A stretch of DNA of 32,196 nt. Origin: Waterburya agarophytonicola KI4 (lineage in GTDB: Bacteria > Cyanobacteriota > Cyanobacteriia > Cyanobacteriales > Xenococcaceae). This document shows, piece after piece, positions 1,064 through 20,317 of this stretch. The DNA lies in assembly GCF_020640915.1 (NCBI RefSeq), contig NZ_JADWDC010000055.1, positions 1 to 32,196 on the forward strand, in the 5' to 3' direction. Made by a program: the position numbers and the translations under genes. The notes below the pieces were generated by a model. It saw only the letters and a list, made by a program, of their open reading frames with translations. It had not been told where the DNA came from and ran no database searches. The first letter of the stretch is position 1, and every line of letters begins with the position of its first letter.

Positions 1064-2036
1064 AAGATGCATTTGCCCTGGGCTGTGCCAGGAGGAGTGC
1101 GCCAATCTTTATCGAATGAGGGAAAAATAAAAATTAGCGATCGCATCTCTGAAGCAAAGATAATTATTCTCAATGCCTTAGACAAGTTCAAAAGTTTGCT
1201 GACAAATTATCAAACAGAAGCACAAACCTTTGGTAACTTTCCTAGTTTGTTTATGGGGTTAGTCGGTCAAGATGGAGAGTGGGAACATTACGGTGGTAAG
1301 ATTCGCTTTGTCGATAGTGGTGGCAATATCATTGCAGACCGACCGCCTCGATCCCACTCATTATCAAGAGTTTATCGCCGAAGCCGTCGAACCCTGGTCG
1401 TACTTAAAGTTTCCTTACTATCGTCCTTTAGGATATCCAGCTAAGAAAGATTCCTGTAATCTGCAAAATGGTATTTATCGCGTAGGACCATTAGCAAGAT
1501 TAAATATTTGTAGTCGTATCGGCACGCCTTTAGGCGATCGCGAATTAGCAGAATTTAGAGATCGAGGTCACAGTACAGTTAATTCATCTTTTTTCTATCA
1601 CTACGCACGACTGATTGAAATCCTAGTATGTATCGAAAAAATCGACCAATTGCTAGAAGATTCGGATTTGCAGAGCGATCGTCTGCGAGCCAAAGCTGGT
1701 ATCAATCAACTAGAAGGAATTGGAGTGAGCGAAGCCCCTAGAGGCACTTTATTTCATCACTATAGAGTAGATGAAAATGGCTTGATGAAAAAAGTAAATC
1801 TAATTATTGCTACTGGACAAAACAACCTGGCTATGAATCGCACTGTCGCTCAAATTGCTAGATACTTCATTCGCGGAACTAAAATTTTAGAAGGAATGCT
1901 CAATCGGGTTGAAGCGGGTATCAGAGCTTTCGATCCTTGTTTGAGCTGCTCGACCCATGCGGTTGGTCAAATGCCATTACACATTCAGTTATTCGATGCT
2001 GACGAAAACTTGCTTGAAGATGTTTACCAAAATTGA
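1064..2036 (+). pseudogene. hoxH: hoxH, C-terminal two thirds (split, frameshifted)
   Basis: This encodes the C-terminal part of the bidirectional [NiFe]-hydrogenase large subunit. Homology starts abruptly at KMHLPWAVPGG, continues through [24 protein letters not shown] and [14 protein letters not shown], and ends with the Ni-binding L2 motif DPCLSCSTH, after which the maturation protease normally cuts. The reading frame shifts at 1337-1344, where GACC is tandemly duplicated. Removing one copy restores [14 protein letters not shown]. At 1440-1466 there are 27 extra in-frame bases between GYP and NGIYR compared with the HoxH sequences I recall; this may be natural variation. The missing N-terminal third lies at 20318-20769 on the opposite strand. 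Confidence 0.95.
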
Positions 2037-2070
2037 TGTTCAATAAATTGAAGCGATTAAGTAGCTCCAC

Positions 2071-2163
2071 CTAATTAAACATCAAACGTTTAACAGCGTA
2101 ATTTCCCAGTTGACCCCGATTTTCGATGCCTTCTTGAATTTCACTTTCGATGAGGTAATTTTA
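2071..2163 (-). pseudogene. Short open frame, possible gene remnant
   Basis: Between an in-frame stop at 2161-2163 and the TAG at 2071-2073 the minus strand is open for about 29 codons. It encodes a protein-like string (NYLIESEIQEGIENRGQLG). No start codon is present and I do not recognise the family. It lies between the end of hoxH and coaE and may be the tail of a degraded gene. Confidence 0.25.
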
Positions 2164-2198
2164 CTCAACGTTCGTTGGTATTTAAAGTATCCTTTGAG

Positions 2199-2804
2199 TT
2201 ATCGGAATTTAGAAGAGATAATGTTATGAATTTCCCGATCTACTTCAGCAAACAAATCATCTAAATCGCCATTATTCTCTAAAACTACGTCCGCAGCAGC
2301 GACTTTCTGGACTAAGGGGAGCTGGCTGTCGATTCGAGCTTCTGCTTGTTTGACAGTCAAACCATTCCTCTGTTGTAGTCTAGCAACTTGCATAGAGTGA
2401 TCGCAGCTAACTACCCAAATTTCCGTGACAGTATTGGTTAAATTAGCTTCAAACAAAAGAGGAATATCCAATATTATTGTATGATCTCGAATGGTTTGTA
2501 ATTCCAGATCGAAGCGATCGCGGACATAAGGATGAATTTGACTTTCTAGCCATTGCTTTTCTGAGTGGCTATTAAAAATAATTTCACCCAAAGCAGCACG
2601 GTTTAAAGTGCGATCGGGTAAGATAACTCTATCGCCATAACGAGTAAAGATAATTTGTAAAATTGGCGAATCTGGGGCTACGGCTTCTCTAGCATAAACA
2701 TCTGCATCCAAAATCGGCAAACTATATTTTTCTGCTAGATAATTTGATACGGTGGTCTTACCTGTAGCAATTCCTCCAGTTAATCCAATTAATCTTTGGT
2801 TCAT
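2199..2804 (-). CDS. coaE: Dephospho-CoA kinase
   Basis: CoaE phosphorylates the ribose 3'-OH of dephospho-CoA with ATP, the last step of coenzyme A synthesis, in the cytosol. The 201-residue product has the normal CoaE length. It starts with the P-loop GLTGGIATGKTT (residues 7-18), followed by the family's DADVYAREAV and the central segment ILDIPLLFE. The ATG at 2804 has no strong Shine-Dalgarno sequence. It is convergent with the hoxH fragment and divergent from the flavin reductase gene, so it is probably transcribed alone. The gene appears intact. Confidence 0.95.
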   Translation of the reverse strand: MNQRLIGLTGGIATGKTTVSNYLAEKYSLPILDADVYAREAVAPDSPILQIIFTRYGDRVILPDRTLNRAALGEIIFNSHSEKQWLESQIHPYVRDRFDLELQTIRDHTIILDIPLLFEANLTNTVTEIWVVSCDHSMQVARLQQRNGLTVKQAEARIDSQLPLVQKVAAADVVLENNGDLDDLFAEVDREIHNIISSKFR

Positions 2805-2914
2805 AATTTAATTTCAATGTCTCCCAAATTATTTATCTAACTAAAGAAAGTTTTTCTCGATCCAGAAGCTTGATAAACTGTTGCGAGATAATTCTAGATT
2901 AAGGAGCAAGAATT

Positions 2915-3397
2915 TTGTTAGACCAAAAAGCAAAAAAAACAATGCTACGGAAGATTCCCCACGGATTATATATCTGCGGAGTCAAGGAAGGGGAAGAAAT
3001 GAATGGTTTTACTGTTAGCTGGTTGATGCAAGCTTCTTTTGAGCCACCTTTGGTGGTTAACTGTGTCAAAAAAGGGACTACTTCCCATGAGATGATTAAA
3101 AATACTCAAGTCTTTGCCATTAGCTTTCTCGAATCGGGACAAAAAGACTTAGCTGCATCTTTCTTCCAACCCAAAACTCGTGTTGGCAATAAATTTGAAC
3201 ATGTAGAATTTTATGAAGGTGAAGCTACAGGCTGTCCTATTATCCAAGATTCTTTGGGTTATATTGAATGTAAAGTAGTTGGTACAGTAGAAAAAGGGGA
3301 CCATACTGTATATGTTGGTGAAGTAATCGCTTCAGGAGTTCATCGCGAAGGAGATCAGCTATTACTATCTAGTACGGGTTGGGAATATGGCGGTTAG
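2915..3397 (+). CDS. Flavin reductase-like FMN-binding protein
   Basis: The 160-residue product is a single flavin-reductase-like split-barrel domain, the fold that binds FMN and supports NAD(P)H-dependent flavin reduction. Typical features are the N-terminal PHGLYICGV, NGFTVSWLMQASFEPPLV, the FAISFLE strand and the C-terminal HTVYVGEV. It resembles both stand-alone flavin reductases and the last domain of cyanobacterial diflavin proteins. There is no metallo-beta-lactamase or flavodoxin domain, so it is not a diflavin protein. The start is TTG, supported by AAGGAG at 2901-2906, 8 nt upstream. The partner enzyme is unknown. Confidence 0.85.
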   Translation: MLDQKAKKTMLRKIPHGLYICGVKEGEEMNGFTVSWLMQASFEPPLVVNCVKKGTTSHEMIKNTQVFAISFLESGQKDLAASFFQPKTRVGNKFEHVEFYEGEATGCPIIQDSLGYIECKVVGTVEKGDHTVYVGEVIASGVHREGDQLLLSSTGWEYGG

Positions 3398-3453
3398 TAA
3401 TGATTAATAGTTGAAATGATAGGGGTATTTATTTCCCTATCTCCCATAGATGT

Positions 3454-3478
3454 GGGGAGTATATTGCCTCCCCATCTC
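3454..3478. terminator. Possible terminator hairpin between convergent genes
   Basis: ATG(t)GGGGAG and CTCCCCAT can pair across a short AT-rich loop with a single-base bulge. The hairpin sits between the 3' ends of the flavin reductase gene and the Sua5/YrdC gene. No clear T-run follows, so this is only a candidate. Confidence 0.35.
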
Positions 3479-3533
3479 CTAAGCTGTCAAGCATTTAATT
3501 TGCTTGTTGGGATTTTAAGTTATATTCTCAAAC

Positions 3534-4187
3534 TTAATGTACAAAATCTAGCCAATTCTCCACTTCCTGCCAACCCAAACCTTTTCGCACAACTTCGGGT
3601 TCGTCGCTAGTAAAATCTAGAATAGTAGAAACTTTAAACCCAGGATCTATACTGTTATCAATAATTATATCTACTTGATTTTCCAAAGCATCGAATAAAT
3701 AAGCTTTGTCTACATTCATCGTCGGGTAGTCGCCATCTTCATCTTTGATATGTGCCGAAGTAGAAACTACAGGATTGCCCAAAGTCTTCAATAATTCTTG
3801 ACATAAAAGATTATTTGGGACTCTAATACCGCTAGTCTTACGTTTGGGACTCATTACTAGCTTTGGCACTTGTTTGCTGGCAGGGAGTAAAAAAGTATAA
3901 GGCCCTGGAATGAGATGTTTCATGATACGATAAGCGTGATCGCTGACTGTCGCATATTCAGAAATATTAGACAAGGAAGAACACAAAAAAGTTAAGGGTT
4001 TATCATTAGACATCTGCTTGATTCTTCTAACTTTTTCCACCGCAGACTTAACGCTAAGATCGCAGCCGATCGCGTATACTGTATCGGTGGGATAAAGCAT
4101 TACTGCACCTTTTTTTAATGCGGTAGCAATTTGATCGATAGTTCTTTGTTGGGGGTTGTTGGGGTGTAGTTCGTGTAGAATAGCCAT
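3534..4187 (-). CDS. Sua5/YciO/YrdC-family protein (L-threonylcarbamoyladenylate synthase-like)
   Basis: The family makes threonylcarbamoyl-AMP from threonine, bicarbonate and ATP for the universal t6A37 tRNA modification. The 217-residue product is a single YrdC domain without the Sua5 C-terminal extension. Visible family motifs are YPTDTVYAIGCDL, the basic RRIKQMSNDKPLTFL, the central PGPYTFLLPAS, the substrate-site stretch SGIRVPNN, and VVSTSAH. GAGG lies 8 nt before the ATG at 4187. It is divergent from larC with 66 bp between the starts. The YciO subgroup is not proven to do the t6A reaction, so the exact function is uncertain. Confidence 0.85.
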   Translation of the reverse strand: MAILHELHPNNPQQRTIDQIATALKKGAVMLYPTDTVYAIGCDLSVKSAVEKVRRIKQMSNDKPLTFLCSSLSNISEYATVSDHAYRIMKHLIPGPYTFLLPASKQVPKLVMSPKRKTSGIRVPNNLLCQELLKTLGNPVVSTSAHIKDEDGDYPTMNVDKAYLFDALENQVDIIIDNSIDPGFKVSTILDFTSDEPEVVRKGLGWQEVENWLDFVH

Positions 4188-4253
4188 ATAAATTACCTCA
4201 TAATGAATAATGTTCTCGATCCAATCGATCGCGAGTAGTTTAGATGGTGTTTT

Positions 4254-5498
4254 ATGGGCAAAATTTGTTACTTAGAGTGTCCTACAGGAATTGCTGGGGA
4301 CATGTGTTTGGGCGCGCTAATTGATTGTGGTTTGCCCTGGCAATATTTAATCGATAGTCTTGGGCTTTTAGGTATTGAATCAGAATATCAACTAAGAACG
4401 GAAAAAGTTATTCGCAACGGACAAGCAGCTACAAAAGTTTATGTCAATTTGCAAGTAGAACACAAGCATACCCATGATGACCACCACCATCACCATTATC
4501 CAGCCAGACACCTGCCAGAAATTGAAAATTTAATAAAAAATGCAAGATTAAAAGATCGCGTCAAGGAATGGAGTTTGGCTATATTTAATCAACTGGCGAT
4601 CGCAGAAAGTCAAGTCCACGGTATTCCCCCAGAAAAAGTACACTTTCACGAAGTAGGGGCAACCGATGCCATTGTGGATATTGTCGGCACTTGTATCGGT
4701 TTGGATTGGCTAGATATCGAAGAATTATATTGCTCTGCTATGCCTACAGGGGGAGGTACGGTAAAGGCAGCCCACGGACTGCTATCTGTCCCCGTTCCTG
4801 CGGTAGTCAAACTCTGGGAGACAAGGAAAGTACCAATATATAGTAATGGTATCAAAAAAGAGCTAGTTACGCCGACGGGTGCTGCGATCGCCGTAACTCT
4901 AGCATCGGGTTTTGGCGACCCCCCCGCGATGAAACTAACTAAAATGGGTTTGGGTGCGGGTTCTCAAGATTTTGAGATTCCCAATATTTTGCGATTATGG
5001 CTAGGGGAGAAGGAGACGGAGAGACGGGGAGAGAAGGAGACGGTACGAGAGACGGTGACGGTATTGGAGACTCAAATCGACGATCTCAATCCTCAAGCGG
5101 TAGCTTATACCTTAGAACAATTAATTGCTGCGGGAGCATTAGATGTCTTTACCCAAAATATTGGCATGAAAAAATCGCGATCGGGTATCCTTTTAACGGT
5201 TATTTGTCATCCTACCCTGGCTAATACTTGCAAGACAATTATCTTCAAAGAAACGACTACCCTGGGAATAAGAGAGAGAAATCAACAGAGGAATATTCTC
5301 GATCGCCAACTAAAATCTATCTCTACCAAATACGGTACGCTAAAAGTTAAAATTGCCAGTTGGGGAACAGGTAAAGAAAGAGAAGTTATCAACATACAGC
5401 CAGAATATGAAGACTGCGCTATTCTAGCTCGTAAACATAATATTCCTTGGAGAGAAATAGCTCAACAAGCAATTATCGCCTGGGAAAGCGATCGCTAA
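4254..5498 (+). CDS. larC: LarC family protein (nickel-pincer cofactor synthesis, DUF111)
   Basis: LarC inserts nickel into the pyridinium bisthiocarboxylate precursor to make the nickel-pincer cofactor first found in lactate racemase. The 414-residue length is typical. The N-terminus CYLECPTGIAGDMCLGAL and the segment HFHEVGATDAIVDIVG are family hallmarks. Residues 70-81 form a histidine cluster (HKHTHDDHHHHH), common in Ni-handling proteins. Between the N- and C-terminal domains (about residues 251-267) a purine-rich microrepeat at 5009-5062 adds an Arg/Glu/Thr-rich linker without breaking the frame. larA, larB and larE are not in the window, so its client enzyme is unknown. Confidence 0.9.
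   Translation: MGKICYLECPTGIAGDMCLGALIDCGLPWQYLIDSLGLLGIESEYQLRTEKVIRNGQAATKVYVNLQVEHKHTHDDHHHHHYPARHLPEIENLIKNARLKDRVKEWSLAIFNQLAIAESQVHGIPPEKVHFHEVGATDAIVDIVGTCIGLDWLDIEELYCSAMPTGGGTVKAAHGLLSVPVPAVVKLWETRKVPIYSNGIKKELVTPTGAAIAVTLASGFGDPPAMKLTKMGLGAGSQDFEIPNILRLWLGEKETERRGEKETVRETVTVLETQIDDLNPQAVAYTLEQLIAAGALDVFTQNIGMKKSRSGILLTVICHPTLANTCKTIIFKETTTLGIRERNQQRNILDRQLKSISTKYGTLKVKIASWGTGKEREVINIQPEYEDCAILARKHNIPWREIAQQAIIAWESDR
5009..5062. repeat. Purine-rich microrepeat inside larC
   Basis: The block is built from irregular repeats of GGAGA, GACGG and GAGACGG units. It resembles the short tandem purine repeats common between cyanobacterial genes. Here it is in frame and lies in an interdomain linker, so it is probably tolerated. 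Confidence 0.6.
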
Positions 5499-5540
5499 TC
5501 GACAATTGACAATTAATTAAATATTTTTTACTCCATCCCT

Positions 5541-7403
5541 ATGACTGAAACCGTTCTTGATGTTCGTCACTTGCAAGTCCAATTTACCACCGAAAGCGAT
5601 CCCGTGGTAGCAGTCAACGATCTTAGCTTTCAACTAAGGAAAGGAGAAAAACTAGGTATAGTTGGCGAGTCAGGTTCGGGAAAATCAGTTACTTCTTTAG
5701 CAATTATGGGCTTAGTTCCCACTCCTGGACACATTACCGCAGGAAAGATTCTTTTTACTCCCGACAACAAATCCCAAGTCGATTTATTACAGGTAAACGA
5801 AGCCGAGCGTAGAAGCTATCGTGGTGGCGAAATTGCCATGATATTTCAAGAGCCAATGAGCGCGCTCAATCCCGTCTATGATATAGGTTTTCAGCTTACG
5901 GAAGCAATTTTACTACATCAAAAAGTATCATCCTCCGAAGCCAGAAGAAAAGCGATCGCCTTATTACAAGAGGTGCAGCTTTTATCCGACGATGAAACCC
6001 TGAAACAGCAATACCTTCGAGAAAATCCTAGTTCGTTACATAGCGATCGCGCGATCGCCGATTATATCAACCGACACAAGCAAGAAATACTAAAACGTTA
6101 CCCCCACCAACTATCGGGGGGACAATTACAACGCATCACTATTGCCATGGCTATTTCTTGCAATCCCAGGGTTTTAATTGCCGACGAGCCGACAACAGCT
6201 CTAGATGTAACAGTTCAAGCTACTATCCTCGACTTGTTGCGAGATCTCTGCCAAAAGAGGGGAATGTCTCTGATTTTTATCACTCACGATCTGGGAGTAA
6301 TTGCCGAATTAGTCGATACGGTGACGGTAATGTATCGGGGGAATGTCGTCGAGTCAGGGGATATTCAAACTGTTTTTACCAATCCCGCCCATCCCTACAC
6401 CAAAGGATTATTAGCCTGTCGCCCTACCCTCAAACACAAGCTAAAAATATTACCCACAGTGGCGGATTTTATGGAGGTATCTACCACCCCCGAAGGGGAA
6501 ATGAAAATTGTAGAAAAACCAACCAGTCTCGATCAAAAACTCAATGAAATTGTTACCGACAGCGCACAGCAAGCAAGATTAGACAAATTAGTCCAACAAA
6601 AGCCCATCATGTCTGTGGAAAAATTGCGGGTAGGCTTTCCCCTCAAAGGAGTTTTTGGCAGAACCAAAAAATATATGATGGCGGTGAATAATGTTTCCTT
6701 TGAAGTCTATCCAGGGGAAACATTAGGGCTAGTGGGAGAATCAGGTTGCGGTAAATCTACTTTAGCCAGAACTTTATTGCGCTTGATCCAACCGATGGAA
6801 GGAAATATCGTTTTTGATGGCGATAATATTACTAATTTATCTCTTAAAAGCCAAAAATTGCGATCGCTACGCCGACAGATGCAAATTGTCTTTCAAAACC
6901 CTTACAATTCCCTCAATCCGAGAATAAATATCGGTAAAGCGATCGCCGAACCTTTAGTCGTCCATAAAATAAAATGCGATCGCCAAAAGAAAGTAGCCGA
7001 ACTTTTAGAACGAGTTGGTTTAAATCCCGATATGAGAAATCGTTACCCCCACGAGTTTTCAGGGGGACAAAGACAACGGGTATGTATTGCTCGCGCCCTC
7101 GCTTTAGAGCCTCAATTTATCATCTGTGACGAGTCGGTTTCTGCTTTAGATGTTTCCGTACAAGCGCAAGTTCTAAACCTCTTAAAAAAGCTTCAAGCAG
7201 ACTTTGGTCTAACCTATGTTTTTATCTCCCATGATTTGAGCGTAGTTAAGTTTATGAGCGATCGCATTATTGTGATGAATAAAGGCAAAATTGAAGAAAT
7301 CGATACCGCAGAAGAGATTTATCGCAATCCGAAAACAGACTATACTCGAAAGTTGATTAATTCTATTCCGACAGGAGAATTTTTGGGAACAAATAATACG
7401 TAG
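5541..7403 (+). CDS. Fused two-domain oligopeptide/dipeptide-type ABC transporter ATPase
   Basis: The 620-residue product carries two complete ABC ATPase domains in tandem, like a DppD-DppF or GsiA fusion. Domain 1 has Walker A GESGSGKS (42-49), signature LSGGQ (191-195) and Walker B VLIADEP. Domain 2 has GESGCGKS (399-406), signature FSGGQ (506-510) and FIICDES. Each domain is followed by the oligopeptide-type sequence near HPYTKGLL or DYTRKLI. An insertion of about 30 residues sits before the first signature motif. Such ATPases energise import of peptides, nickel or glutathione. No permease is adjacent, so the cargo cannot be deduced. It follows larC on the same strand after 42 bp. Confidence 0.9.
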
Positions 7404-7460
7404 GGGAGTAAAGCTAGATTTTTGAAATGACCAAAGTTTTCAGAGTCTGACAAAAGAGGG

Positions 7461-8540: not shown

Positions 8541-8606
8541 AGATATTAAAATTAGATGATTATAAGTAATATAAAGGAAATCCTCTAACTTTATTTACCA
8601 ATAAAC

Positions 8607-8637
8607 TGGTCAGTTATCAATATTAGACAACTGACCA
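8607..8637 (-). terminator. Hairpin downstream of mscL
   Basis: TGGTCAGTT (8607-8615) and AACTGACCA (8629-8637) form a 9-bp stem with a 13-nt loop. It lies between the mscL stop and the start of the binding-protein gene, both on the minus strand. The bases after the stem in the direction of transcription are only weakly T-rich. Confidence 0.5.
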
Positions 8638-10520: not shown

Positions 10521-11888
10521 GTGGGCAAAAAGACATCCAAACAAGAGGCTCATTACAATCAAGCTCGTGCCAGCTTACAACAGGCTATTTCTTGGTATTC
10601 TGGTTTTCGTCGTCACGGCAATTCTCCTCCAGGAGATCGCCTACAAGCAACTGTTAAAAAAGATTTACAATATCTCCAGAGTGCTTTAGATAAACTAGAC
10701 CGTCGCGCCATTCGCATTAGTACTTTTGGTTTGGTAAGTTGTGGCAAATCTTCCCTGATTAACGCTCTTTTAGAAGAAGAAGTGGTCGCAACAGGCCCAT
10801 TACATGGTGTCACCCAATCTCTAACTATTTTGCAATGGAATCCTTTTCCCGAAGATGGGTTAGCAGTAGAATTAATTGATACTCCTGGATTAGACGAGGT
10901 AGCAGGAGAAGCCAGGGCGACCATGGCGCGAGAAATAGCACAAAAATCCGATCTGATTTTATTTGTCGTGGCGGGAGATATTACCAAAACCGAATATGAA
11001 GCATTGTGCGAACTGAGAAGTACCCAAAAGCCTTTAATTTTGGTCTTTAATAAGGTAGATCTTTATCCAGATAGCGATCGCCAAAAAATTTATCGCCAAC
11101 TACAGCAGCTAAATGCCGAACGCAGTAGGGGTAGTTTAGAAGATCTTATTACTACTCAAGAGATTGTCATGGTTGCAGCCCAGCCTCAACCAATTCAGGT
11201 TAGAGTAGAATCAGCCGACGGTACGGTAGAAACTAGTTGGGAAAATCCCGAACCCCAAATCGAAGAATTGCATCAAACAATTTGTCATATCTTGCAACAA
11301 GAAGGTAAATCATTGCTGGCTTTGAATGCTCTGGTACAAGGAAGGGATGCAGAGGCTAATATTGCTCGCAAGACGGTTGAATTGCGTCAAACAGAAGCAG
11401 AGCAAATTATTAATAAGTATGCTCGTTATAAAGCGATCGCTGTAGCAGCTAATCCAGTTATTTTCTTGGACTTGGTGGGGGGATTTGTGGCAGATTTAGC
11501 TCTGATTCGCTCTTTATCTAAGTTATATGGACTGCCCATCACTACCTACGAAGCAGGAAACCTCTTGAGACGTATTGTAGCTAGTTCTGGTGGTTTATTA
11601 CTGGGAGAGGTGGGTAGTAGTTTGTTTCTGGGAGTTGGTAAAAGCGGGGCTATATTAAGCAGTGGGTTTGACAGTACTGGAGCGATCGCAGCTTATCTGG
11701 GTACAGCTACAGCCCAGGGAGCGATCGCAGGATATGGGACTTATGTCGTTGGTCGAGTCGCTCAGATCTATTTAGAACAAGGCTGTACTTGGGGAGAAAT
11801 GGGAGCTTCGACCTTGATCAAAGAGATTTTAGATCGGGTCGAACCAAATACGATTATGTACCGTTTACGTCAAGAATTGCTGGGATAA
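10521..11888 (+). CDS. Era-like GTPase with a hydrophobic C-terminal region (DUF697 type)
   Basis: The 455-residue product has an N-terminal helical segment (1-62) and a G domain with G1 GLVSCGKSS (70-78), G3 DTPGLD (120-125) and G4 NKVD (177-180). Its C-terminal half is Gly- and Ala-rich and hydrophobic (from about residue 310), able to insert in or bind membranes. This architecture is widespread in cyanobacteria and its cellular role is not established. The start is GTG, preceded by a GAGGTGGG-like ribosome site. A nearby ATG in another frame at 10504 is not the start. Confidence 0.85.
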   Translation: MGKKTSKQEAHYNQARASLQQAISWYSGFRRHGNSPPGDRLQATVKKDLQYLQSALDKLDRRAIRISTFGLVSCGKSSLINALLEEEVVATGPLHGVTQSLTILQWNPFPEDGLAVELIDTPGLDEVAGEARATMAREIAQKSDLILFVVAGDITKTEYEALCELRSTQKPLILVFNKVDLYPDSDRQKIYRQLQQLNAERSRGSLEDLITTQEIVMVAAQPQPIQVRVESADGTVETSWENPEPQIEELHQTICHILQQEGKSLLALNALVQGRDAEANIARKTVELRQTEAEQIINKYARYKAIAVAANPVIFLDLVGGFVADLALIRSLSKLYGLPITTYEAGNLLRRIVASSGGLLLGEVGSSLFLGVGKSGAILSSGFDSTGAIAAYLGTATAQGAIAGYGTYVVGRVAQIYLEQGCTWGEMGASTLIKEILDRVEPNTIMYRLRQELLG

Positions 11889-11905
11889 TTATTAATTATG
11901 ATTTA

Positions 11906-12220
11906 TTAGCGATCGGCAGTTAATTCAATTTGACTTTGACTATTTTCTTCCCCAATTAGGTTTGCATTCATTGAAGATAGAGCCACAAACACGAACGTAC
12001 CCACGATCGCCATAATTGTGATAAATTGCGTGCTATCGAAATGATATTGACTACTTTTTAGCTGTTGCAAGCAATTTTCATATTCTTGAAGGGTCATGGA
12101 CAATTCATTATCACAATCTCTTAGCTGAATATAAATATTATTTTCAATCTGCCTGAGATTTTTGATATTATTTGGTCTGGTTTCTAACAATACGGCAATT
12201 ATATTACGAGTAATAATCAT
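11906..12220 (-). CDS. Small putative membrane protein of unknown function
   Basis: This encodes 104 residues. Residues 1-60 are polar and probably helical. Residues 66-88 form one clear transmembrane segment (FITIMAIVGTFVFVALSSM), followed by a short acidic tail. I recognise no family. It is convergent with the GTPase gene, with only 17 bp between the stops, and divergent from thrB. The single hydrophobic helix in an otherwise soluble frame supports it being real, but no strong ribosome site was found. Confidence 0.5.
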   Translation of the reverse strand: MIITRNIIAVLLETRPNNIKNLRQIENNIYIQLRDCDNELSMTLQEYENCLQQLKSSQYHFDSTQFITIMAIVGTFVFVALSSMNANLIGEENSQSQIELTADR

Positions 12221-12347
12221 GATTAAATTTGGCTGTTTTATAATATTTTGATTTAACTACTTTTTTCCATTAACTACTAAAAATTCACTCCATTCAACGA
12301 TCCCGATCGCACTTACAAATTTTATTAAACAAAAAATAACTAATCAG

Positions 12348-13256
12348 ATGAATCAAGTTACTATTCGCGTTCCTGCAACTACCGCCAATTTAGGAGTTGG
12401 TTTTGACTGCATTGGTGCAGCCTTGACTATGGCTAATCAATTTCAATTTACTGTTGTCGATACAGAGAATAAACTCACTATTACAACAGAAGGTGATGAA
12501 GCAGATAAAGTGGGAACGGATGAGAGTAATTTAATATATCAGTCTTTTCTTCAGCTTTATCAAAAAATCAAACAAACACCCCCTAATATAAAGATTGCAA
12601 TAAAGCTAGGCGTACCTCTTTCTAGAGGATTGGGTAGTTCTGCTACGGCAATTGTGGGGGGGTTATTGGGGGCAAATCACTTGGCAGGAAAGCCTCTGAG
12701 TCGGGAGGAAGTAATGGCGATCGCCATTGCCATTGAAGGTCATCCCGATAACGTCGTCCCCGCATTATTGGGCAACTGTCAGCTATCGGTAGCTGATGGA
12801 GATATTTGGCAGATTAGCGAGATTTCTTGGCACGAGGATATTATTCCCGTAGTAGCCATCCCTAATTTTGAACTGTCTACAGAAGAGGCGCGTTCGGTGT
12901 TACCCGATAGCTATAACCGTCAGGACGCTATTTTTAATATATCTCGCATGGGTTTATTGATTAGAGCTTTAACTACTAATAACAGAGAATGGCTTAAAAC
13001 AGCACTAGCAGATAAGATACACCAACCTTACCGCCAACAACTAATTACTGGTTACGAGCAACTGCATCGTGCTGCTATTTCCGCAGGTGCTTATGGTATG
13101 GTCATTAGTGGTGCGGGGCCTACTTTACTAGCCTTGACAGATAAAAATAACGCCGATGGCGTGGTGCGATCGATGTCCGAAGCCTGGAGTAAATTGGGTA
13201 TAGATGCAACAGTGCGATCGCTCTCCCTCGATCCTGTCGGTGCAACAATGTTGTAG
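12348..13256 (+). CDS. thrB: Homoserine kinase
   Basis: ThrB phosphorylates L-homoserine to O-phospho-homoserine, the step before threonine synthase. The 302-residue GHMP kinase starts with VTIRVPATTANLGVGFDCIG. It carries the ATP-binding motif GVPLSRGLGSSAT (88-100), then EGHPDNVVPALLGN, and ends with the GHMP C-terminal motif YGMVISGAGPTLLAL. All diagnostic segments are intact. It lies 23 bp upstream of a GNAT gene on the same strand and may be cotranscribed with it. Confidence 0.96.
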   Translation: MNQVTIRVPATTANLGVGFDCIGAALTMANQFQFTVVDTENKLTITTEGDEADKVGTDESNLIYQSFLQLYQKIKQTPPNIKIAIKLGVPLSRGLGSSATAIVGGLLGANHLAGKPLSREEVMAIAIAIEGHPDNVVPALLGNCQLSVADGDIWQISEISWHEDIIPVVAIPNFELSTEEARSVLPDSYNRQDAIFNISRMGLLIRALTTNNREWLKTALADKIHQPYRQQLITGYEQLHRAAISAGAYGMVISGAGPTLLALTDKNNADGVVRSMSEAWSKLGIDATVRSLSLDPVGATML

Positions 13257-13279
13257 CAGATCCCCATTAATTTTACTCA

Positions 13280-13792
13280 ATGCAGATATTAGAAACACCC
13301 AGGCTGATTATTAGATATTTTACCATTAGAGATCTTGAAAATCTTTCGCCCATTTTGGCAGATCCTCAAGTTATGGAATTTTCTATTATTGGAGTTCACA
13401 ATTCCCAGCAAATCAGACAGTTTATCGAACAACGATTGCTCTCATACATCGAGCCTGGCTTCGGTTTGTATGCTTTAATTGATAAACAGACTAAAGAACT
13501 TATCGGCTACTGTGGCTTTTTTCTCCAAAAGATAAATGCGGATCGGGAAGTAGAAATAGGCTATCGTTTGGCTACAAAATATTGGGGACGAGGTTTGGCT
13601 ACCGAAGCAGCACAAGCTCTCTATCAATACGGTCGACAAAAATTTGATTTTAAGCGTTTTGTCTGTTTAATTGAACCTGATAATATTCGTTCGATTCGCG
13701 TAGCTCAAAAGCTAGGAATGAAGTTAGAAAAACAGATAATATATTATGGTATTAACGTAGAAATGTATACTGTCAATATAGATCAATTTTGA
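13280..13792 (+). CDS. GNAT-family N-acetyltransferase (RimJ/RimL type)
   Basis: The 170-residue product has the RimJ/RimL pattern. It opens with LETPRLIIRYFTIRDLENL and has the strand EVEIGYRLATKYWGRGLATEA. The WGRGLATEA part is the acetyl-CoA pyrophosphate loop. The C-terminal motif NIRSIRVAQKLGMKLE is also typical. Family members transfer acetyl groups to protein N-termini, antibiotics or small amines, so the target is unknown. It follows thrB by 23 bp. Confidence 0.9.
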   Translation: MQILETPRLIIRYFTIRDLENLSPILADPQVMEFSIIGVHNSQQIRQFIEQRLLSYIEPGFGLYALIDKQTKELIGYCGFFLQKINADREVEIGYRLATKYWGRGLATEAAQALYQYGRQKFDFKRFVCLIEPDNIRSIRVAQKLGMKLEKQIIYYGINVEMYTVNIDQF

Positions 13793-13812
13793 TATTTAAG
13801 ATCGAAAGTTAC

Positions 13813-14340
13813 TTATTTTTTATGAATAGAATCTTCCCAATTAACAGTAGATCTAGAGCGAACTTTTCTGGCATTAGCTGCATTATCATCTTGATCGCTC
13901 AGTTCAGCTAAAATAGGTTTTACTAGCCTAACAATATTTTTCCAAGTCAAATCTTTTTTGGGTAAATAATTAGCTAATTCTTGCAAAGCTGCTTGAGCTT
14001 CTCTAATATCGCGGTCGAGATTTTGATCGTCTTCAGCAGTTAAAGGAGTAGAACTACGCAATAGATCTTTTTGAACTGCGGCAAATCCTTTACGAACTTC
14101 TTGAGTAATTTTTACACTATAATCCGAACGCCCTTTGATTTTTTGCTTATTAAATCCTTGTTGGGAAGAAGCATACAAAGCGGGTAATCTATTCAGAGCA
14201 TAAGTAGATACTTCAATTGGGTTAATAAATTTCTTAATATTGCTAGGAAGACGATTTATTTGTCGATCAATTTCTTCTGAAACCAATATTTCCATAACAT
14301 TGCGATTAACGTAATCGCTTTCAGGTTTATTAATGTTCAT
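13813..14340 (-). CDS. ComFB-domain protein
   Basis: The product is 175 residues if it starts at the ATG at 14340. A TTG at 14376 would add 12 residues, but neither start has a good ribosome site. Residues about 12-65 match the ComFB domain: NVMEILVSEEIDRQ, then INPIEVSTYALNRLPALYASSQ. The remainder is polar and helical, with SADDDQN-like acidic and basic patches. ComFB proteins in cyanobacteria have been reported to bind cyclic di-nucleotides and influence cell size, type IV pili or competence. Such a role here is inference. It is convergent with the GNAT gene. Confidence 0.8.
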   Translation of the reverse strand: MNINKPESDYVNRNVMEILVSEEIDRQINRLPSNIKKFINPIEVSTYALNRLPALYASSQQGFNKQKIKGRSDYSVKITQEVRKGFAAVQKDLLRSSTPLTAEDDQNLDRDIREAQAALQELANYLPKKDLTWKNIVRLVKPILAELSDQDDNAANARKVRSRSTVNWEDSIHKK

Positions 14341-14596
14341 TTTGCTAACTTTTGCTAAATAACTATCTTTGAGCAAATAAGAATTACAATATAAAATCTT
14401 ACTCTTCCTATATATACATAAATAATCGTGATTGCCTAGCGGTAAATACTTTTAAATCTAGAAAATTCACTTAATTTTTATGTTATTTACTCTGCAATCT
14501 CAATTCCTTTATCTAAAACTTAAATTAGCCCTCAGAAAAAATACTGACTATTTGTTTAATATTTTTTATTGTTACCCAATGAATTAACAAAGCGAT

Positions 14597-14642
14597 CGCC
14601 TTGTTATTAAACCGAACTCAAAGTTAAAGCGATCGCTTTTTC
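14597..14642. repeat. Two HIP1-centred palindromes
   Basis: AACAA-a-GCGATCGC-c-TTGTT and AAAGCGATCGCTTT lie about 25 bp apart downstream of the TerB/Mo-nitro_C gene. The second runs into a T-stretch on the plus strand. They may act as transcription stops, but HIP1 palindromes are frequent in this genome. Confidence 0.4.
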
Positions 14643-14663
14643 ACGAAAATAACTAAATTGAAA

Positions 14664-15380
14664 TTATTGAATATATTTGGTCACATCTTCGCCACAATCA
14701 TCAGCTAAATAAGATAGGGAACGAAAACGCAGCATTGTAAATTGCTCGTATAAAGGGTTGAGTTTACATAAAGGAGGAATATGGGCAATCTTGCGTCCAA
14801 ATAAGTTTATATCTCGTTCAAAAGGACATTGAGGTGGAATCACCTTGCAGACAAATTTAGCCAGACGAGGATCTTTTACTTCCATCCCCTCAAGCCAATC
14901 TTTAATGGGATGAAGTACGTCTACCCCCGCTTTAGAATCTTGTGAGGGGGGAGTTAGGGGAGAAGCAGTACCAGCACTATTTGCTTGCTGTGCTTCTAGT
15001 TCTTCTTCTGATTTATAGAGGGTACTTTCTAAAGATTTTAAAGCTTCGACTTTAATTTCCAAGGCATCGCTAAATTGATGCAGCAATTCATATTCGGGAG
15101 TAGAATAAACCCCATCAGCTACCGCTACCAATACCGCAGTACGTAAGAAATTTTCGGCAGTATGGGGATCTTTTCCCAGGCTTTGAGCGAGTTCTTCGGG
15201 AGTAATTGTGTCTAGGGTATTAACGCGATCGATATCGGCTAAATCTTGAGTTAGTTGGGCGATTAAATCTTGTTCTTGGGGATCGTAATGTCCGTCGGCT
15301 AACGCCACAGTATATAAACCTCTTAGCCAAGCTACAATTTGGCGATCGCTATAGGCGGATTCTGTAATAGTAGTAGTCAT
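14664..15380 (-). CDS. TerB-like protein with C-terminal Mo-nitro_C domain
   Basis: The 238-residue product fuses two regions. Residues about 10-125 form a TerB-like all-helical domain: WLRGLYTVALADGHYDPQEQDLI, then VLVAVADGVYSTPEYELL, with acidic motifs like those that bind divalent metal. A Ser/Pro/Gln-rich linker (about 130-150) joins it to a segment that matches the domain named Mo-dependent nitrogenase C-terminus: WLEGMEVKDPRLAKFVCKVIPPQCPFERDI, then LCKLNPLYEQF and SYLADDCGED. No nitrogenase gene is present, so the domain name does not imply nitrogen fixation. Function unknown. Confidence 0.85.
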   Translation of the reverse strand: MTTTITESAYSDRQIVAWLRGLYTVALADGHYDPQEQDLIAQLTQDLADIDRVNTLDTITPEELAQSLGKDPHTAENFLRTAVLVAVADGVYSTPEYELLHQFSDALEIKVEALKSLESTLYKSEEELEAQQANSAGTASPLTPPSQDSKAGVDVLHPIKDWLEGMEVKDPRLAKFVCKVIPPQCPFERDINLFGRKIAHIPPLCKLNPLYEQFTMLRFRSLSYLADDCGEDVTKYIQ

Positions 15381-15435
15381 AGGAGCTATCTTTAATTATG
15401 TGTTTTAATTATGTGTTTTAAAAAAGGCTATTTGT

Positions 15436-15493
15436 ATTAACTCCACATAGGTCGTAACGAGGGAGTTAATGCACCATTAGAGGATGTCCTCTG
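15436..15493. ncRNA. Tandem hairpins in an intergenic region, possible structured RNA or leader
   Basis: A 9-bp perfect stem (ATTAACTCC at 15436-15444 with GGAGTTAAT at 15462-15470, 17-nt loop) is followed by AGAGGA-TG-TCCTCT (15479-15492). They lie between the divergent TerB-like and pseudouridine-synthase genes. The second hairpin shares 14 of 15 positions (agaggwtgtcctctg) with one at 32067-32081. The strand and existence of a transcript are unknown. Confidence 0.35.
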
Positions 15494-15617
15494 CAATATA
15501 TCATAGCTAAACCCTGGGGTAAAAATTCTTCAAATTAGCCGAACCCGAAACTGTAAAATAGAAGTTAATTAAAATTTTTAGTAAGAATTTGTCAGAGGTA
15601 CTATTCAAGAAATTATA

Positions 15618-16526
15618 TTGCAGGTAACAGAACAAAACGAACGTCTTGATCGCTGGTTATCAAGCCAGCTAACCGACATTTCCCGTTCTCGCATTCAAAA
15701 GTTAATTGAGAGTGGTAATGTTAGGTTAAACGATCGCCTGTGCCACAGTAAGAAGGTGAAAATTGTTCCTGGCGATCGACTTTTAATTACTATTCCCCCA
15801 CCAGAAAAACTAGATTTAACTCCCGAAAATATTCCTCTCGATATTTTGTATGAAGACGAGCATCTAATTATTGTCAATAAACCCGCAGGAATGGTGGTTC
15901 ATCCCGCACCAGGACACTATAGGAGTACCCTAGTTCATGCTTTACTTTATCATTGCCAGACTTTAGCAGGTATTGGGGGAGTAGAACGTCCTGGTATCGT
16001 TCACCGTATTGATAAAGATACTACGGGGGCGATTGTGGTGGCTAAAAGCGATCTCGCTCATCAAAATTTACAGGCGCAAATTAAAGCTAAAACTGCTCGA
16101 AGGGAATACTGGGGAATCATGTACGGTTCTTTTTCTACAGAATCAGGTAAAATCAATGCACCCATTGGTCGTCATCAAAGCGATCGCAAAAAAATGGCAG
16201 TTGTTACCTTGGAAAAAGGCGGAAGAGAAGCTGTTACCTACTGGAAAACTCTAGAGCGAATTGGTAATTATAGCTTGATGCAATTTCTCTTAGAAACAGG
16301 ACGTACTCATCAAATTAGGGTTCATTGCGCCCATCAAGGAAATCCCCTATTAGGAGATCCTATCTACGGCTCGAATCGTTCCCTTAAGGTTAATTTATCG
16401 GGACAAGCACTTCATGCAAGGCAATTGTCTCTATCCCATCCTATTTCAGGCAAATTAATTACAGCGATCGCACCATTACCATTAGAGTTTACCAAACTCT
16501 TGCAAGTTTTACGCAACCGAAATTAA
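15618..16526 (+). CDS. RluA/RluD-family 23S rRNA pseudouridine synthase
   Basis: This enzyme isomerises uridine to pseudouridine in RNA, most likely in 23S rRNA. An N-terminal S4 RNA-binding domain (ERLDRWLSSQLTDISRSRIQKLIESGNV) is followed by the catalytic domain. That domain contains HRIDKDTTG with the catalytic Asp, NKPAGMVVHPAPGH, and GRTHQIRVH near the C-terminus. Length (302) is typical of RluD. The start is uncertain: TTG at 15618 is used here, because no ATG is available. An AGAGG at 15594-15598 sits better for an ATT at 15603. The PKHD gene follows after 9 bp. Confidence 0.92.
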   Translation: MQVTEQNERLDRWLSSQLTDISRSRIQKLIESGNVRLNDRLCHSKKVKIVPGDRLLITIPPPEKLDLTPENIPLDILYEDEHLIIVNKPAGMVVHPAPGHYRSTLVHALLYHCQTLAGIGGVERPGIVHRIDKDTTGAIVVAKSDLAHQNLQAQIKAKTARREYWGIMYGSFSTESGKINAPIGRHQSDRKKMAVVTLEKGGREAVTYWKTLERIGNYSLMQFLLETGRTHQIRVHCAHQGNPLLGDPIYGSNRSLKVNLSGQALHARQLSLSHPISGKLITAIAPLPLEFTKLLQVLRNRN

Positions 16527-16535
16527 TTTATTCTT

Positions 16536-17207
16536 ATGATCTTTTCCATAGATAATATTCTTTCCCCCGAAGAAATTAGCGAAATCAAGCAAGTTTTAGA
16601 ACGAGCAGAATTTGTCGATGGTAAACTTACCGCAGGATGGCACGCTAAATTAGTCAAAAATAACCAACAATTAAAATCAGGAACATCTCAAAAAGAACTC
16701 AAGGCAAAAATTTGCGCTGTCTTGTTTAAAAATGCCCTATTTCAAACTACAGTTCGCCCTAAAACAATTCATTCCATTTTATTCAGTCGCTACGACCAAG
16801 GGATGTCTTACGATACTCATGTAGATAATGCCTTGATGAAAAACAACGGTAGTTTTTGCCGTTCGGATGTATCTTTTACCTTGTTTCTCAATTCCCCTCA
16901 AGACTATGAAGGGGGAGATTTAACTATAGAAGGAGTGCAAGAAGAACAACATTACAAACTAGATGCAGGTTCGGCTATTATCTATCCTTCCACTACTCTA
17001 CATCGCGTTAACCCCGTTACTCAAGGTACGAGGCTAGTTGTGGTAGGTTGGGTACAAAGTGTGATTCGAGATGCAAGCGATCGTGAAATTCTTTTTGACT
17101 TAGAAACTGCAAGGCGAGCAATCTTTGCCAAATCAGGCAAAACCCCAGAATTCGACCTTATTTCTAAAAGTATTGCCAATTTGTTGCGCAAATGGGCAGA
17201 TATTTAA
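16536..17207 (+). CDS. Fe(II)/2-oxoglutarate dioxygenase, PKHD-type (PiuC/YbiX family)
   Basis: The 223-residue product is a full-length PKHD hydroxylase. The iron-binding facial triad is H95-x-D97 (THVDNALM) and H156 (TLHRVNPV). R166 (QGTRLVVVGWVQS) is the likely 2-oxoglutarate ligand. The C-terminal extension with RDASDREILFDLETARRAIFAKSG is characteristic of the YbiX/PiuC subgroup, often linked to iron uptake. It follows the pseudouridine synthase by 9 bp, so cotranscription is likely. The substrate is unknown. Confidence 0.93.
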   Translation: MIFSIDNILSPEEISEIKQVLERAEFVDGKLTAGWHAKLVKNNQQLKSGTSQKELKAKICAVLFKNALFQTTVRPKTIHSILFSRYDQGMSYDTHVDNALMKNNGSFCRSDVSFTLFLNSPQDYEGGDLTIEGVQEEQHYKLDAGSAIIYPSTTLHRVNPVTQGTRLVVVGWVQSVIRDASDREILFDLETARRAIFAKSGKTPEFDLISKSIANLLRKWADI

Positions 17208-17253
17208 CCATCGTTAATCGTCGATCGTTTAGAAGCACTTTCACTACAAAACT

Positions 17254-17285
17254 AAAAAACCCAACAAGAATAATTTCTTATTGGG
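17254..17285 (-). terminator. Rho-independent terminator of nirA
   Basis: CCCAACAAGAA (17260-17270) and TTCTTATTGGG (17275-17285) form an 11-bp stem with one mismatch and the loop TAAT. On the minus strand the stem is followed by six T residues (17254-17259). It lies just beyond the nirA stop and can also serve the convergent PKHD gene. Confidence 0.85.
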
Positions 17286-17321
17286 CTGATAACTGATAAC
17301 TGATAGCTCAGTTAAGGAGTG

Positions 17322-19208
17322 TTAAACATCAAGCACCATAGAACTTACGGGTTTAGCACAACAGGTTAAAATTTCTCCCGCTTCCAAACCCCTCAAAGCG
17401 TCATAATCTTCTTCGTAAGTTACTTCACCTTTTAAAACCTTCGCCGTACAAGTACCGCAAGTACCCGCGCGACAGCTACTTTCGATCTCTACTCCCACTT
17501 TTTCCGCTGCATCGAGAATATATTCCCCTTCGCTACAGGCTGCTTCTTTCCAAGAGTTAGCTAGAAATATTTTAGTTTTAGTCGAACCATTTGCCGAACC
17601 ATTAGAATCAGATTTGAGAGTTTCGACTACAGGCGCAGACTCTTCTATTGTTACGCCATCTTTTAGCTTGGCATTAAATTTTTCAATTAATAAACTACGT
17701 AACGTTGTTTTAAGATCGTCTAGCGCAACCCCTTGATTAATCGCCGTACCTAATTCCGCACCATGACCAACTTTACCACCGCTATAGATTTTTGCTCCTG
17801 CTACGGCTTTTCCATCCTTACGTACCTTAGTTCCCATTAAGCCGATATCTCCTGCCTGGGGTTGTCCGCACGAGTTAGGACATCCCGTCCAATGTAAGCG
17901 AACTCGTTGGGGAATATCTAATTCTGCGTCTAATTCTTGAGCTAGTTTTAAGGCTGTTTGTTTGGTTTCGATAATGGCAAAATTGCAATATTGCGCCCCC
18001 GTACAAGAAATAACCGAACGAGTTAAAGTACTGGGATCGATCGCAAACTTCTCTAATAATGGTTCGGTAAGGAAAGTATCGACATTTTCGTTAGCAATGT
18101 AGGGAATAATTGCATTTTGTTCCACCGTGAGGCGAATTTCACCGTTACCATATACTTCTGCTAGCCTAGCTAATTCAAACATTGATTCGGCATTTAAACG
18201 TCCCATAGGTACGTGCAAACCAACATAACTATAGCCTTCTTGCTTCTGGGGATGTATTCCTAAATGATCTTTTTTATCTTGGGTAATCTCGTCTTTTTCC
18301 GCAGCAGATGCTAGAGGTTTGCCGAATTCTTTCTCTAGTTCGTTACGGAACTTTTCGACTCCCCAGGTTTCAATTAACCACATCATACGGGCTTTGGGAC
18401 GACTTGCTCTTAATCCTTCTGCGGCACCATTCTGGGTATATACGGTTAAAACAGCGCGAGAAAATTCTACTATATCGTCATCATTTGCAGGAAGCCACAC
18501 CCCCAAAGGAATAGATTCTGCACAGCGCTGCGCGGATAAATAACCACCCACTAAGACATTAAAACCAAGTACTCCATCTTTGTATGCAGGAACATAAGCT
18601 AAGTCGTTTAATTCTGCATGGATAGAATTATCTCTCGCCCCTTCGATCGCAATATTGAACTTGCGGGGTAAATTGGTAAAAGCATAATTACCCTCGCCAT
18701 TATTGGTAATCATGTCTTGAACTTTCTGGTTCATTTGGCGAGTGTCGATCAATTCATCGGGATCGATACCAGCTACAGGAGAACCCGTTAAGTTACGCAC
18801 GTTGTCCATTCCAGATTGAATACTGGTTAAACCAACTTCTTTAAATCGATTAAACAATTCGGGAATATCTTCTAAACGCACTCCCCGCAATTGAATGTTC
18901 TGACGGGTAGTAATGTCCGCCGTACCATTATCGCCATAACGCTCAATTCCCCCAGCCAATACTTTCATTTGTTCGCTAGTAATAACTCCATTGGGAACGC
19001 GCATCCGCACCATAAATTCCCCTGGAGTTACAGGGCGATAAAATATCCCCAACCACTTGAGGCGGGTTTCTAAATCTGCTTTGTCTACTGCTTCCCAACC
19101 TATCTTGGCAAAATATTCTAGCTCATTTTTGACATCTAATCCATCTTTGGCTGCTTTTACTTTCTCTACCTTGTTGAGTTTAATTTTGGTGTTGGCTTCA
19201 GTAGTCAT
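17322..19208 (-). CDS. nirA: Ferredoxin-nitrite reductase with fused C-terminal [2Fe-2S] ferredoxin domain
   Basis: NirA reduces nitrite to ammonium with six electrons from ferredoxin, using siroheme and a [4Fe-4S] cluster. The cluster/siroheme cysteines are C402, C408, C443 and C447 (SCTGAQYC and GCPNSC). Two ferrodoxin-like half domains precede them, as expected. After a Gly/Ser/Asn-rich linker (about 530-545), residues 546-628 form a plant-type ferredoxin with C579, C584 and C587 (CRAGTCGTC) and C616 or C617. Such fused nitrite reductases are known in some cyanobacteria and could shorten electron delivery. It stands alone; nitrate transporter and nitrate reductase genes are not in the window. 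Confidence 0.95.
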   Translation of the reverse strand: MTTEANTKIKLNKVEKVKAAKDGLDVKNELEYFAKIGWEAVDKADLETRLKWLGIFYRPVTPGEFMVRMRVPNGVITSEQMKVLAGGIERYGDNGTADITTRQNIQLRGVRLEDIPELFNRFKEVGLTSIQSGMDNVRNLTGSPVAGIDPDELIDTRQMNQKVQDMITNNGEGNYAFTNLPRKFNIAIEGARDNSIHAELNDLAYVPAYKDGVLGFNVLVGGYLSAQRCAESIPLGVWLPANDDDIVEFSRAVLTVYTQNGAAEGLRASRPKARMMWLIETWGVEKFRNELEKEFGKPLASAAEKDEITQDKKDHLGIHPQKQEGYSYVGLHVPMGRLNAESMFELARLAEVYGNGEIRLTVEQNAIIPYIANENVDTFLTEPLLEKFAIDPSTLTRSVISCTGAQYCNFAIIETKQTALKLAQELDAELDIPQRVRLHWTGCPNSCGQPQAGDIGLMGTKVRKDGKAVAGAKIYSGGKVGHGAELGTAINQGVALDDLKTTLRSLLIEKFNAKLKDGVTIEESAPVVETLKSDSNGSANGSTKTKIFLANSWKEAACSEGEYILDAAEKVGVEIESSCRAGTCGTCTAKVLKGEVTYEEDYDALRGLEAGEILTCCAKPVSSMVLDV

Positions 19209-19684
19209 AAATCTAGACCTTGAGGTATGTTATGGGTTGAGTATGGGAAAAAGTTCTGATTAATCTGATTAAAAGTGTTTTGGGTAGTTTGTAGATACGA
19301 GATTCGTGATTACTTAATATGATTGTGTAGATCTGTTTGGGTATTTTGTGTTTTTTAATACAAAATAGATTTTTTTATTCGTATATTGCATCAAGTCAAT
19401 CCTTTTAATACATACAAAGCTGAGATCAAAATTTCGATAGAGAAACGACTTCCATTTTTTTAATTGAAGCAGGATTAGGAACGTAATTTTGTTAACCGCG
19501 ATCGCTTTTGAGAAATTAATTTTAAAAATGATTGGATGCAAGATCCTTTTTTCGATCCCCAATCAAGTAATTTGAATTATCAAGATCCTGTTGAAGATTT
19601 TGATTGGTATAATTAAAGACTGTGCTTAAAATAAATAAAACTTATTTACTAGATTGATTTATTTTTATTTGGCTAGTTTGAAGA
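19209..19684. other. Intergenic region with nirA promoter side and a short remnant
   Basis: This AT-rich stretch lies upstream of nirA (left) and the orphan gene at 19685 (right). No exact NtcA box (GTA-N8-TAC) was found. GTA-N9-TAC at 19284-19298 is one base too wide. A 26-codon frame (19536-19616) resembles an internal part of the gene at 19685. An 82-codon minus-strand frame here (19314-19562) has no recognisable features and is probably chance. Confidence 0.5.
19536..19616 (+). pseudogene. Short frame resembling part of the adjacent orphan gene
   Basis: ATG to TAA encodes 26 residues ending SNLNYQDPVEDFDWYN. The neighbour at 19685 has [16 protein letters not shown] at residues 46-61, so 10 of these 16 positions are identical and most of the others are conservative. 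It is probably a leftover of a duplicated or recombined copy of the same gene. Confidence 0.4.
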
Positions 19685-20305
19685 ATGAAGGATACATATT
19701 CTTATATTGAATTTGAGTTTAATAGTTTAGAGAGATTCCATAATTTACAAAAGATGTTCTTGAAACTAAAGGAAGTGAAAGACGAATTTAGGAAAGACAT
19801 TAATTTGGAAGATAAACAAAATGATTTGAACTATAAAGATCCAGTTGATGATTATCAGTGGAAAAATTATCTAGATGAGAAAGCGATCGCCCACTTTAAA
19901 AATACATTTGATTTCAATAGTGAGGAAGGGATAATTTATTGGAAACTTTTGGAATTAACCGAACCTGAAAATCGTTTAGATCATCCTTTTTTTAAGACTC
20001 CTGGCAATTGGGATTTTGAATCTATGTTGGACGCTATTTTCAATGGCTATTATGTGTTGATAGATTTAGTAAAAGAGAAAAGAGATCGGGGATGTTTGTA
20101 TTATCAACCTACGGCTTATCCTTTTGGCGGTTCGGATAGTTTGGTAGAATTAATTAAATCTTTTGGTAATAGGATTACTTATAATTCTCGATCTAAACAT
20201 AGTAAACCTGTAATTGAATCCCAATGGGATTATGAATTAGCTAAAGAGTTGGTTAGGCAAGGTATTGGTTTTACTCCCGAATTGTTACATAATTGGAAGA
20301 TTTGA
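19685..20305 (+). CDS. Orphan protein of unknown function
   Basis: The 206-residue product is rich in Asp, Glu, Lys, Phe, Tyr and Trp, with no signal peptide or membrane segment. Stretches such as [29 protein letters not shown] and [25 protein letters not shown] look like a compact soluble domain. I do not recognise the family. It starts at an ATG after an AT-rich leader and ends 12 bp before the right inversion breakpoint. Its low G+C and the partial copy just upstream suggest an accessory gene, perhaps an immunity-type protein, but this is only a guess. Confidence 0.6.
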
Positions 20306-20317
20306 TAATGAGTTTGT

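Follow-up and report, generated by a model that had tools for sequence, protein, structure and literature searches.

For Tn5 and Tn10, adjacent deletions are described as beginning exactly at the transposon end, and inversions as differing from them only in the strand attacked (PMC2723962). In Planktothrix, a higher share of insertion sequences (ISs) has been noted at breaking regions and a 300-kb inversion has been reported (PMC9366434), and a survey of cyanobacterial genomes reports scattered hox genes and incomplete hup, hox or hyp sets (PMC5186783). Hydrogenase genes can also be interrupted by DNA, as by the hupL elements of heterocyst-forming cyanobacteria (PMC4874684). Such an interruption is found in the hoxH gene of Waterburya agarophytonicola KI4, carried by the contig NZ_JADWDC010000055.1, whose 32,196 nucleotides, taken as a whole, are the window analysed here. 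This hoxH is a pseudogene of the bidirectional [NiFe] hydrogenase family, broken by mobile DNA, and the split was probably made by an inversion-type rearrangement with one end at an ISAs1-family tip.

The locus resembles the adjacent rearrangements of Tn5 and Tn10 (PMC2723962) in having one end exactly at a transposon terminus and the other in DNA unrelated to it, whereas the replicative inversions of the same transposons place a transposon copy also at the target; here, an IS stands at one end and the other end is trimmed. For the Planktothrix inversion, which unites peptide clusters, homologous gene loci are given as the cause (PMC9366434), whereas here a 19-kb block would have been flipped and one gene split. 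The scattered and incomplete hox set is shared with the surveyed genomes, and a hoxH split by an IS is not described in the available part of that survey (PMC5186783). Among the papers listed in the literature searches, no title or abstract opening was seen to report a natural hoxH split by an IS, which makes this a weak negative.

The gene is broken in four places, namely by the split, by a TnpB-bearing insertion and by two frameshifts. Codons are numbered on the 483-codon gene of the relative G005 (G000 is the strain's own genome), and alignment to that gene confirms as real the +2 (~20562) and +4 (~1336) frameshifts described in an earlier note made from the letters alone. The note was equally right that the nickel-ligand motifs CGICP and DPCLSC still stand in the translations. 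Thus, among the features of a HoxH protein (PF00374, both cysteine motifs, an open frame), the motifs are kept and the frame is broken. Two of three open reading frames (ORFs) compared with PF00374 exceed its cut-off, and the third, 20285-20650, reaches 22.3 bits, below 25.8. The PF00374 search of G000 (E 0.001) returned three matches, 1473-1958 (plus strand, above cut-off) and 20569-20685 and 20450-20566 (minus strand, both below it); these are confined to the pieces described here, and no second hoxH was detected elsewhere in the genome. The best named hoxH matches are those of Pleurocapsales cyanobacterium LEGE 10410 (83%) and of a Xenococcaceae metagenome-assembled genome (MAG; 84%).

The 17 bases at 1064-1080 bear most directly on how the gene was split. 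They had been read as hoxH codons, so that turning the interval round would restore a GGKKMH join to the base with nothing missing. In an own-genome search with 800-2300, matches on contigs C31 and C129 stop at 1080 though the query continued. Of the 24 rows obtained in 13 genus genomes with a query ending at 1080, one is the window itself, 14 are loci reaching the query end (503 or 504) and nine are internal pieces. When those 14 loci (own genome, G002, G003, G005, G006 and G010), picked for reaching the IS end, were aligned to window 560-1200, homology ended at 1079-1082 in all 14, with unrelated flanks beyond. The commonest tip ends in ...CTCAATTTAAGATGCGTTNNCCCT(G/A). Compared with 15 collected IS tips, transcribed by hand from alignments, the window agrees at 13-15 of 17 positions; it agrees at 10-11 with the four distinct 17-mers of near hoxH genes and at 12 with the best of 33 distinct 17-mers (from 42 HoxH-like motif matches; three, L007, L009 and L010, of another hydrogenase type). 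A simple position model gives log10 P of -3.35 under IS tips versus -7.63 and -8.60 under hoxH, favouring the IS by 10^4.3 (near hoxH) or 10^5.2 (all hoxH).

All seven hoxH homologues compared hold 17 nt between the matched ends, for example AAGATTCATCCTGCTTG, which reads KIHPAW up to the last base of W. Codons 162-167 of hoxH (17 nt) are therefore absent at the split, and an IS tip that happens to read K-M-H stands in their place. The splice had looked perfect because AAGATTCATCCTGCTTG and the IS tip both start with AAGAT. A base-precise, reversible inversion with nothing lost, as the earlier note proposed, keeps the right frame and length as long as 1064-1080 is counted as hoxH, whereas these bases fit IS tips better by 10^4 to 10^5, codons 162-167 are gone, the TnpB insertion and both frameshifts would persist after re-inversion, and no match longer than six bases joins the breakpoints. 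That proposal is accordingly very improbable.

The element to which the tip belongs retains only the N-terminus of its transposase. This remnant (632-865) matches PF13808 with 60.3 bits (cut-off 32.3), the segment 526-696 reaching 16.7 bits, below the cut-off, and a complete homologue on G005:C342 is recognised as an ISAs1-family transposase by NF033564 (417 bits, cut-off 70); the window match and this homologue together identify the transposase as of ISAs1 type, with a terminal repeat ending at the insertion point in 14 of 14 loci. The remnant shows 70% and 78% identity to the transposase of a related element on contig C128 (~11700-13285), which has inverted ends and a 10-bp duplication in its flanks (GATAAGCAAC); this duplication fixes the end of the element at ...CCCCTG. 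ISAs1-family elements generate target duplications of ~8-10 bp. The candidate target duplication in the window, GGCTGTGCCA, has no second exact copy there, and the two places with one mismatch, 15736 and 28504, lie at a great distance from either breakpoint. The window no longer contains the distal end of this IS copy, whose inner side is cut at ~571, next to a block of short repeats (405-571) that looks like the end of another transposon cutting into the remnant, possibly one of a Tn7/TniA-like, perhaps CRISPR-associated, kind. At 640-690, a G+C-rich palindromic stretch lies within the transposase remnant, and a similar-looking palindrome was seen by eye elsewhere in the C128 transposase.

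At the right breakpoint, homology with G009 stops at 20309, a few bases past an orphan ORF, and at the junction itself base 20317 can be counted to either side. No inverted or direct match longer than six bases was found between 1041-1120 and 20281-20360, the earlier note having put the shared bases at one or two at most. IS-mediated replicative inversion leaves an IS copy at both breakpoints, and here it is present at the left one only. The statement that no recombinase lies inside the interval held in that none was recognised by eye among the translations of its ORFs, part of which were also covered by family searches; it has to be amended in that the left breakpoint is in contact with the truncated ISAs1 transposase and the 5' part of hoxH contains a TnpB gene.

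An inversion is inferred because the two halves of one gene face each other at 18 kb, as a single inversion would leave them. The earlier note had their orientation and distance right and their bounds wrong, hoxH being confined to 20318-20752 and 1081-2036 at the split. That a single 32-kb contig carries two parts of one gene facing each other is most simply accounted for by an inversion-type rearrangement. The argument from orientation and linkage is statistical: by our own arithmetic, chance proximity and orientation together amount to ~2 x 18 kb of 5.1 Mb, times one half, or ~0.4%.

In the proposed course of events, hoxH would once have been contiguous, and an inversion with one end at the ISAs1 tip would have turned round the stretch between codon 167 of hoxH and the 3' flank of the orphan ORF. 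In a one-step path, the IS would have lain beyond the orphan gene and its end would have attacked hoxH; in a two-step path, the IS would have inserted into hoxH first, and a second break would then have inverted the IS together with the C-part. Both paths would require the end of the N-part to have been trimmed before it was joined to the orphan flank. Because the right end lacks the IS copy that replicative inversion would leave, we favour either attack by the IS end with trimming and end joining, or insertion of the IS and then a second break. The data do not discriminate between these two. The more specific proposal that a lone ISAs1-family end attacked a gene 19 kb away, in a conservative one-ended inversion with the IS at one breakpoint and a trimmed, end-joined scar at the other, is put forward only tentatively. 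To our knowledge, such an inversion is not a described product of the ISAs1 family.

Several observations weigh against an inversion ending at an ISAs1 tip. At 3 of 17 positions the window tip departs from the commonest tip, and a resemblance to the common tip is also seen in native hoxH 17-mers, which share 9-10 of 17 bases with it. A 15-base tip pattern (up to two mismatches) occurs at 12 places in the own genome, the window tip, with three mismatches, not being among them; a reversed-pattern control gave three places, and part of the 12 seem to be chance hits. The right breakpoint has no IS, no repeat and no second GGCTGTGCCA copy, unlike a textbook replicative inversion. The pre-inversion order was seen in no relative read: hoxH is present in none of 13 fetched coaE-side regions of relatives (coaE itself being recognised in eight, with G004 and G009 offering <1 kb on its 3' side), and coaE in none of six hoxH 3' flanks, that of the MAG being only 903 bp long. 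Finally, with an IS end on each side, the C-part could conceivably have moved as a fragment.

The second of these ends, downstream of the hoxH stop, belongs to the IS630 family. Its boundary at 2058 recurs on contigs C111, C72 and C39, and the complete C111 copy (L003:1514-2566) scores 165 bits with NF033545, whose cut-off is 100, and has TA at both ends. IS630-family elements insert at TA. Membership by transposase family and TA insertion was thus established on the complete copy, to which the ~76 bp of the window are 84% identical. A possible IS630-like end was also seen on G009:C892 (L067 4702-4733), ~110 bp downstream of the orphan ORF, as a weak match (81% over 32 nt, E 0.31).

The flanking ISAs1 and IS630 ends would be explained if the hoxH C-part had been translocated between them, its nearness to the N-part then being due to chance or local hopping. 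The hoxH-coaE adjacency does look derived, and window matches are scattered over many places in relatives (among the matches listed), whereas the facing orientation and the 18-kb distance are what one inversion is expected to give and would be unlikely by chance; translocation is for this reason the less likely course, albeit one with some weight. The restored gene order was sought by DNA in 25 relatives (among the matches listed) and by tblastn on the fetched regions, and was not found. The earlier note had expected comparison of gene order to show hoxH beside coaE as the ancestral arrangement; with counts of 0/13 and 0/6, this order is seen in none of the relatives read. Since the coaE regions and hoxH flanks of relatives lack this adjacency, and another conserved gene lies 3' of coaE, the adjacency is to be regarded, from gene order, as derived, and it was perhaps made by the IS630 element. 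That other gene, SRPBCC-like by eye, is found 3' of coaE at five of eight coaE loci, and in G000 it lies on contig C55.

Some observations were made on these neighbourhoods. A short protein stands between coaE and the SRPBCC-like protein (names by eye) in a small cluster of five genus genomes (L191-L194 and L196) that is broken in G000. In G003, hoxF lies in the hoxH 3' flank; on G003:C190 (L051, 7338-11074), hoxE-hoxF point towards hoxH, meeting it 3' to 3', and the hoxH frame stops early (399 residues) while DNA homology continues. On the 3' side of the orphan ORF, an M23 peptidase-like gene (by eye) comes next in G001. As the G000 relative of that gene lies on contig C91 beside other genes, this side was of no help as a guide to the original context.

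A misjoin of two contigs at an IS would also set foreign ends together. The window is the whole contig C78 and begins in a repeat, and other contigs, C129, C39 and C72, also break at IS ends; the genome (5.1 Mb, 149 contigs) has a completeness of 99.98 and a contamination of 0.38. The IS copy at the junction is, however, only 81% identical to the nearest copy found in the genome, and the right junction is unique, neither of which should mislead an assembler, so that an artefact is improbable. Contigs C120 and C31 start with the same sequence as the repeat at 1-55, and the assembly breaks at such a repeat.

The 5' end of the gene has suffered separately from the split. It had been placed at an ATG at 20769, whereas hoxH codons 1-12 of G003 align to window 22126-22164 (89.7%), where the window reads ATGTCCCAAAAGATAATTATCGATCCAGTTACCAGA; the true 5' end thus follows the N-part in place, on the far side of the TnpB element, which counts in favour of the inversion. 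In the window, the TnpB element breaks the RIEGH motif that is found in the four intact relatives compared, and the ATG at 20769 therefore is not the hoxH start. The ends of the element are uncertain, the left one by ~15 bp, and 22122-22126 can be assigned to either side; a homologue in G010 matches 20768-22126 at 83.6%. The insertion is probably recent, as the 425 bp up to 22126 recur with 100% identity on G000:C108.

The +2 insertion sits in a perfect 32-nt palindrome (20554-20585), at which the G005 gene has an imperfect one. This palindrome is centred on a GCGATCGC site, and the insertion seemingly turned the imperfect palindrome into a perfect one, as in template-switch (quasi-palindrome) events. 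The ratio of nonsynonymous to synonymous substitution rates (dN/dS) of the pseudogene against four intact genes (0.055-0.078) does not differ from that among those four (0.050-0.085), in a test made insensitive by dS values of 0.9-1.8. A recent loss of hoxH is compatible with a dN/dS no higher than between intact genes, the test being weak with dS near or above 1.

The features discussed are collected in the table.

Table. Features of the window around the split hoxH gene.
Feature	Position	Strand	Remarks
Repeat at contig start	1..55	.	C120:1-54 and C31:1-43, both 100%
TTTGTC/GACA-type short-repeat block, ending ...GGCAATCGACA	405..571	.	from sequence and inference
Truncated ISAs1-family IS	572..1080	-	transposase N-terminus 632-865; terminal repeat ends at 1080, abutting hoxH
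IS tip AAGATGCATTTGCCCTG	1064..1080	.	read in the earlier note as hoxH codons KMHLPW; from tip alignments and 17-mer comparison
hoxH C-part	1081..2036	+	third base of codon 167 to stop; +4 insertion near 1336
IS630-family end (transposase C-terminal tail)	2058..2133	-	starts 22 bp after the hoxH stop, towards coaE
coaE	2199..2804	-	name by eye and from the earlier note; hoxH not beside coaE in relatives read
nirA	17322..19208	-	name from the earlier note
Orphan ORF	19685..20305	+	without Pfam or NCBIfam match
Seven bases between orphan flank and hoxH N-part	20310..20316	.	from junction alignment
hoxH N-part	20318..20752	-	~codons 17-161; +2 insertion at ~20562 within palindrome
TnpB-bearing element (IS200/IS605-group) in hoxH	20753..22125	+	TnpB 20830-22071, NF040570
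True hoxH 5' end, codons 1-12, MSQKIIIDPVTR	22126..22161	-	separated by TnpB element

Elsewhere in the window, tandem AAAAGGG-type repeats lie at 27965-28047, upstream of the ORF 26900-27952 (minus strand).

The state of the rest of the pathway also bears on whether the gene could be switched. Within the genus, hoxH was found by PF00374 search in 4 of 12 relatives. In G000, hoxU and hoxY are open frames on contig C128 (L069, 1913-2629 and 3251-3793), and HoxE and HoxF gave no match at E 0.001 in a search of seven genomes, in which both are present in all six relatives. The maturation proteins HypB, HypD and HypE were searched: HypD had no match in G000, HypE only distant paralogues (27% and 26%), and HypB likewise only distant paralogues, a 36% match and a 44% match of a kind found in 13 of 13 genomes, which we take to be probably UreG. 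That a TnpB element has entered hoxH and that hoxE, hoxF and hypD were not found argues against a gene switchable by re-inversion, and re-inversion alone would not be able to restore the enzyme.

A programmed rearrangement, be it a hupL-type element or a phase switch, might be thought of for an interrupted hydrogenase gene in a cyanobacterium. Elements of the hupL type are excised by their own recombinase, and the gene is restored. At the hoxH locus, unlike there, no recombinase or excision-type restoration was found: no recombinase was recognised by eye in the interval, no repeated sites (no match longer than six bases) lie at the breakpoints, and hoxH carries further lesions in a genome in which hoxE, hoxF and hypD were not found. 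On these grounds, a reversible or programmed inversion was rejected, and a programmed one is hardly conceivable. The locus is an ordinary dead gene rather than a genetic switch.

What had been a striking claim of a reversible hydrogenase inversion thus becomes a well-supported instance in which mobile elements have killed a gene. The case further shows how the terminal repeat of an IS can masquerade as codons that a split gene has lost. For the family, this is one more genome with open hoxU and hoxY, a shattered hoxH and no sign of hoxE, hoxF or hypD in the searches made, and as such a small data point on the decay of Hox hydrogenases.

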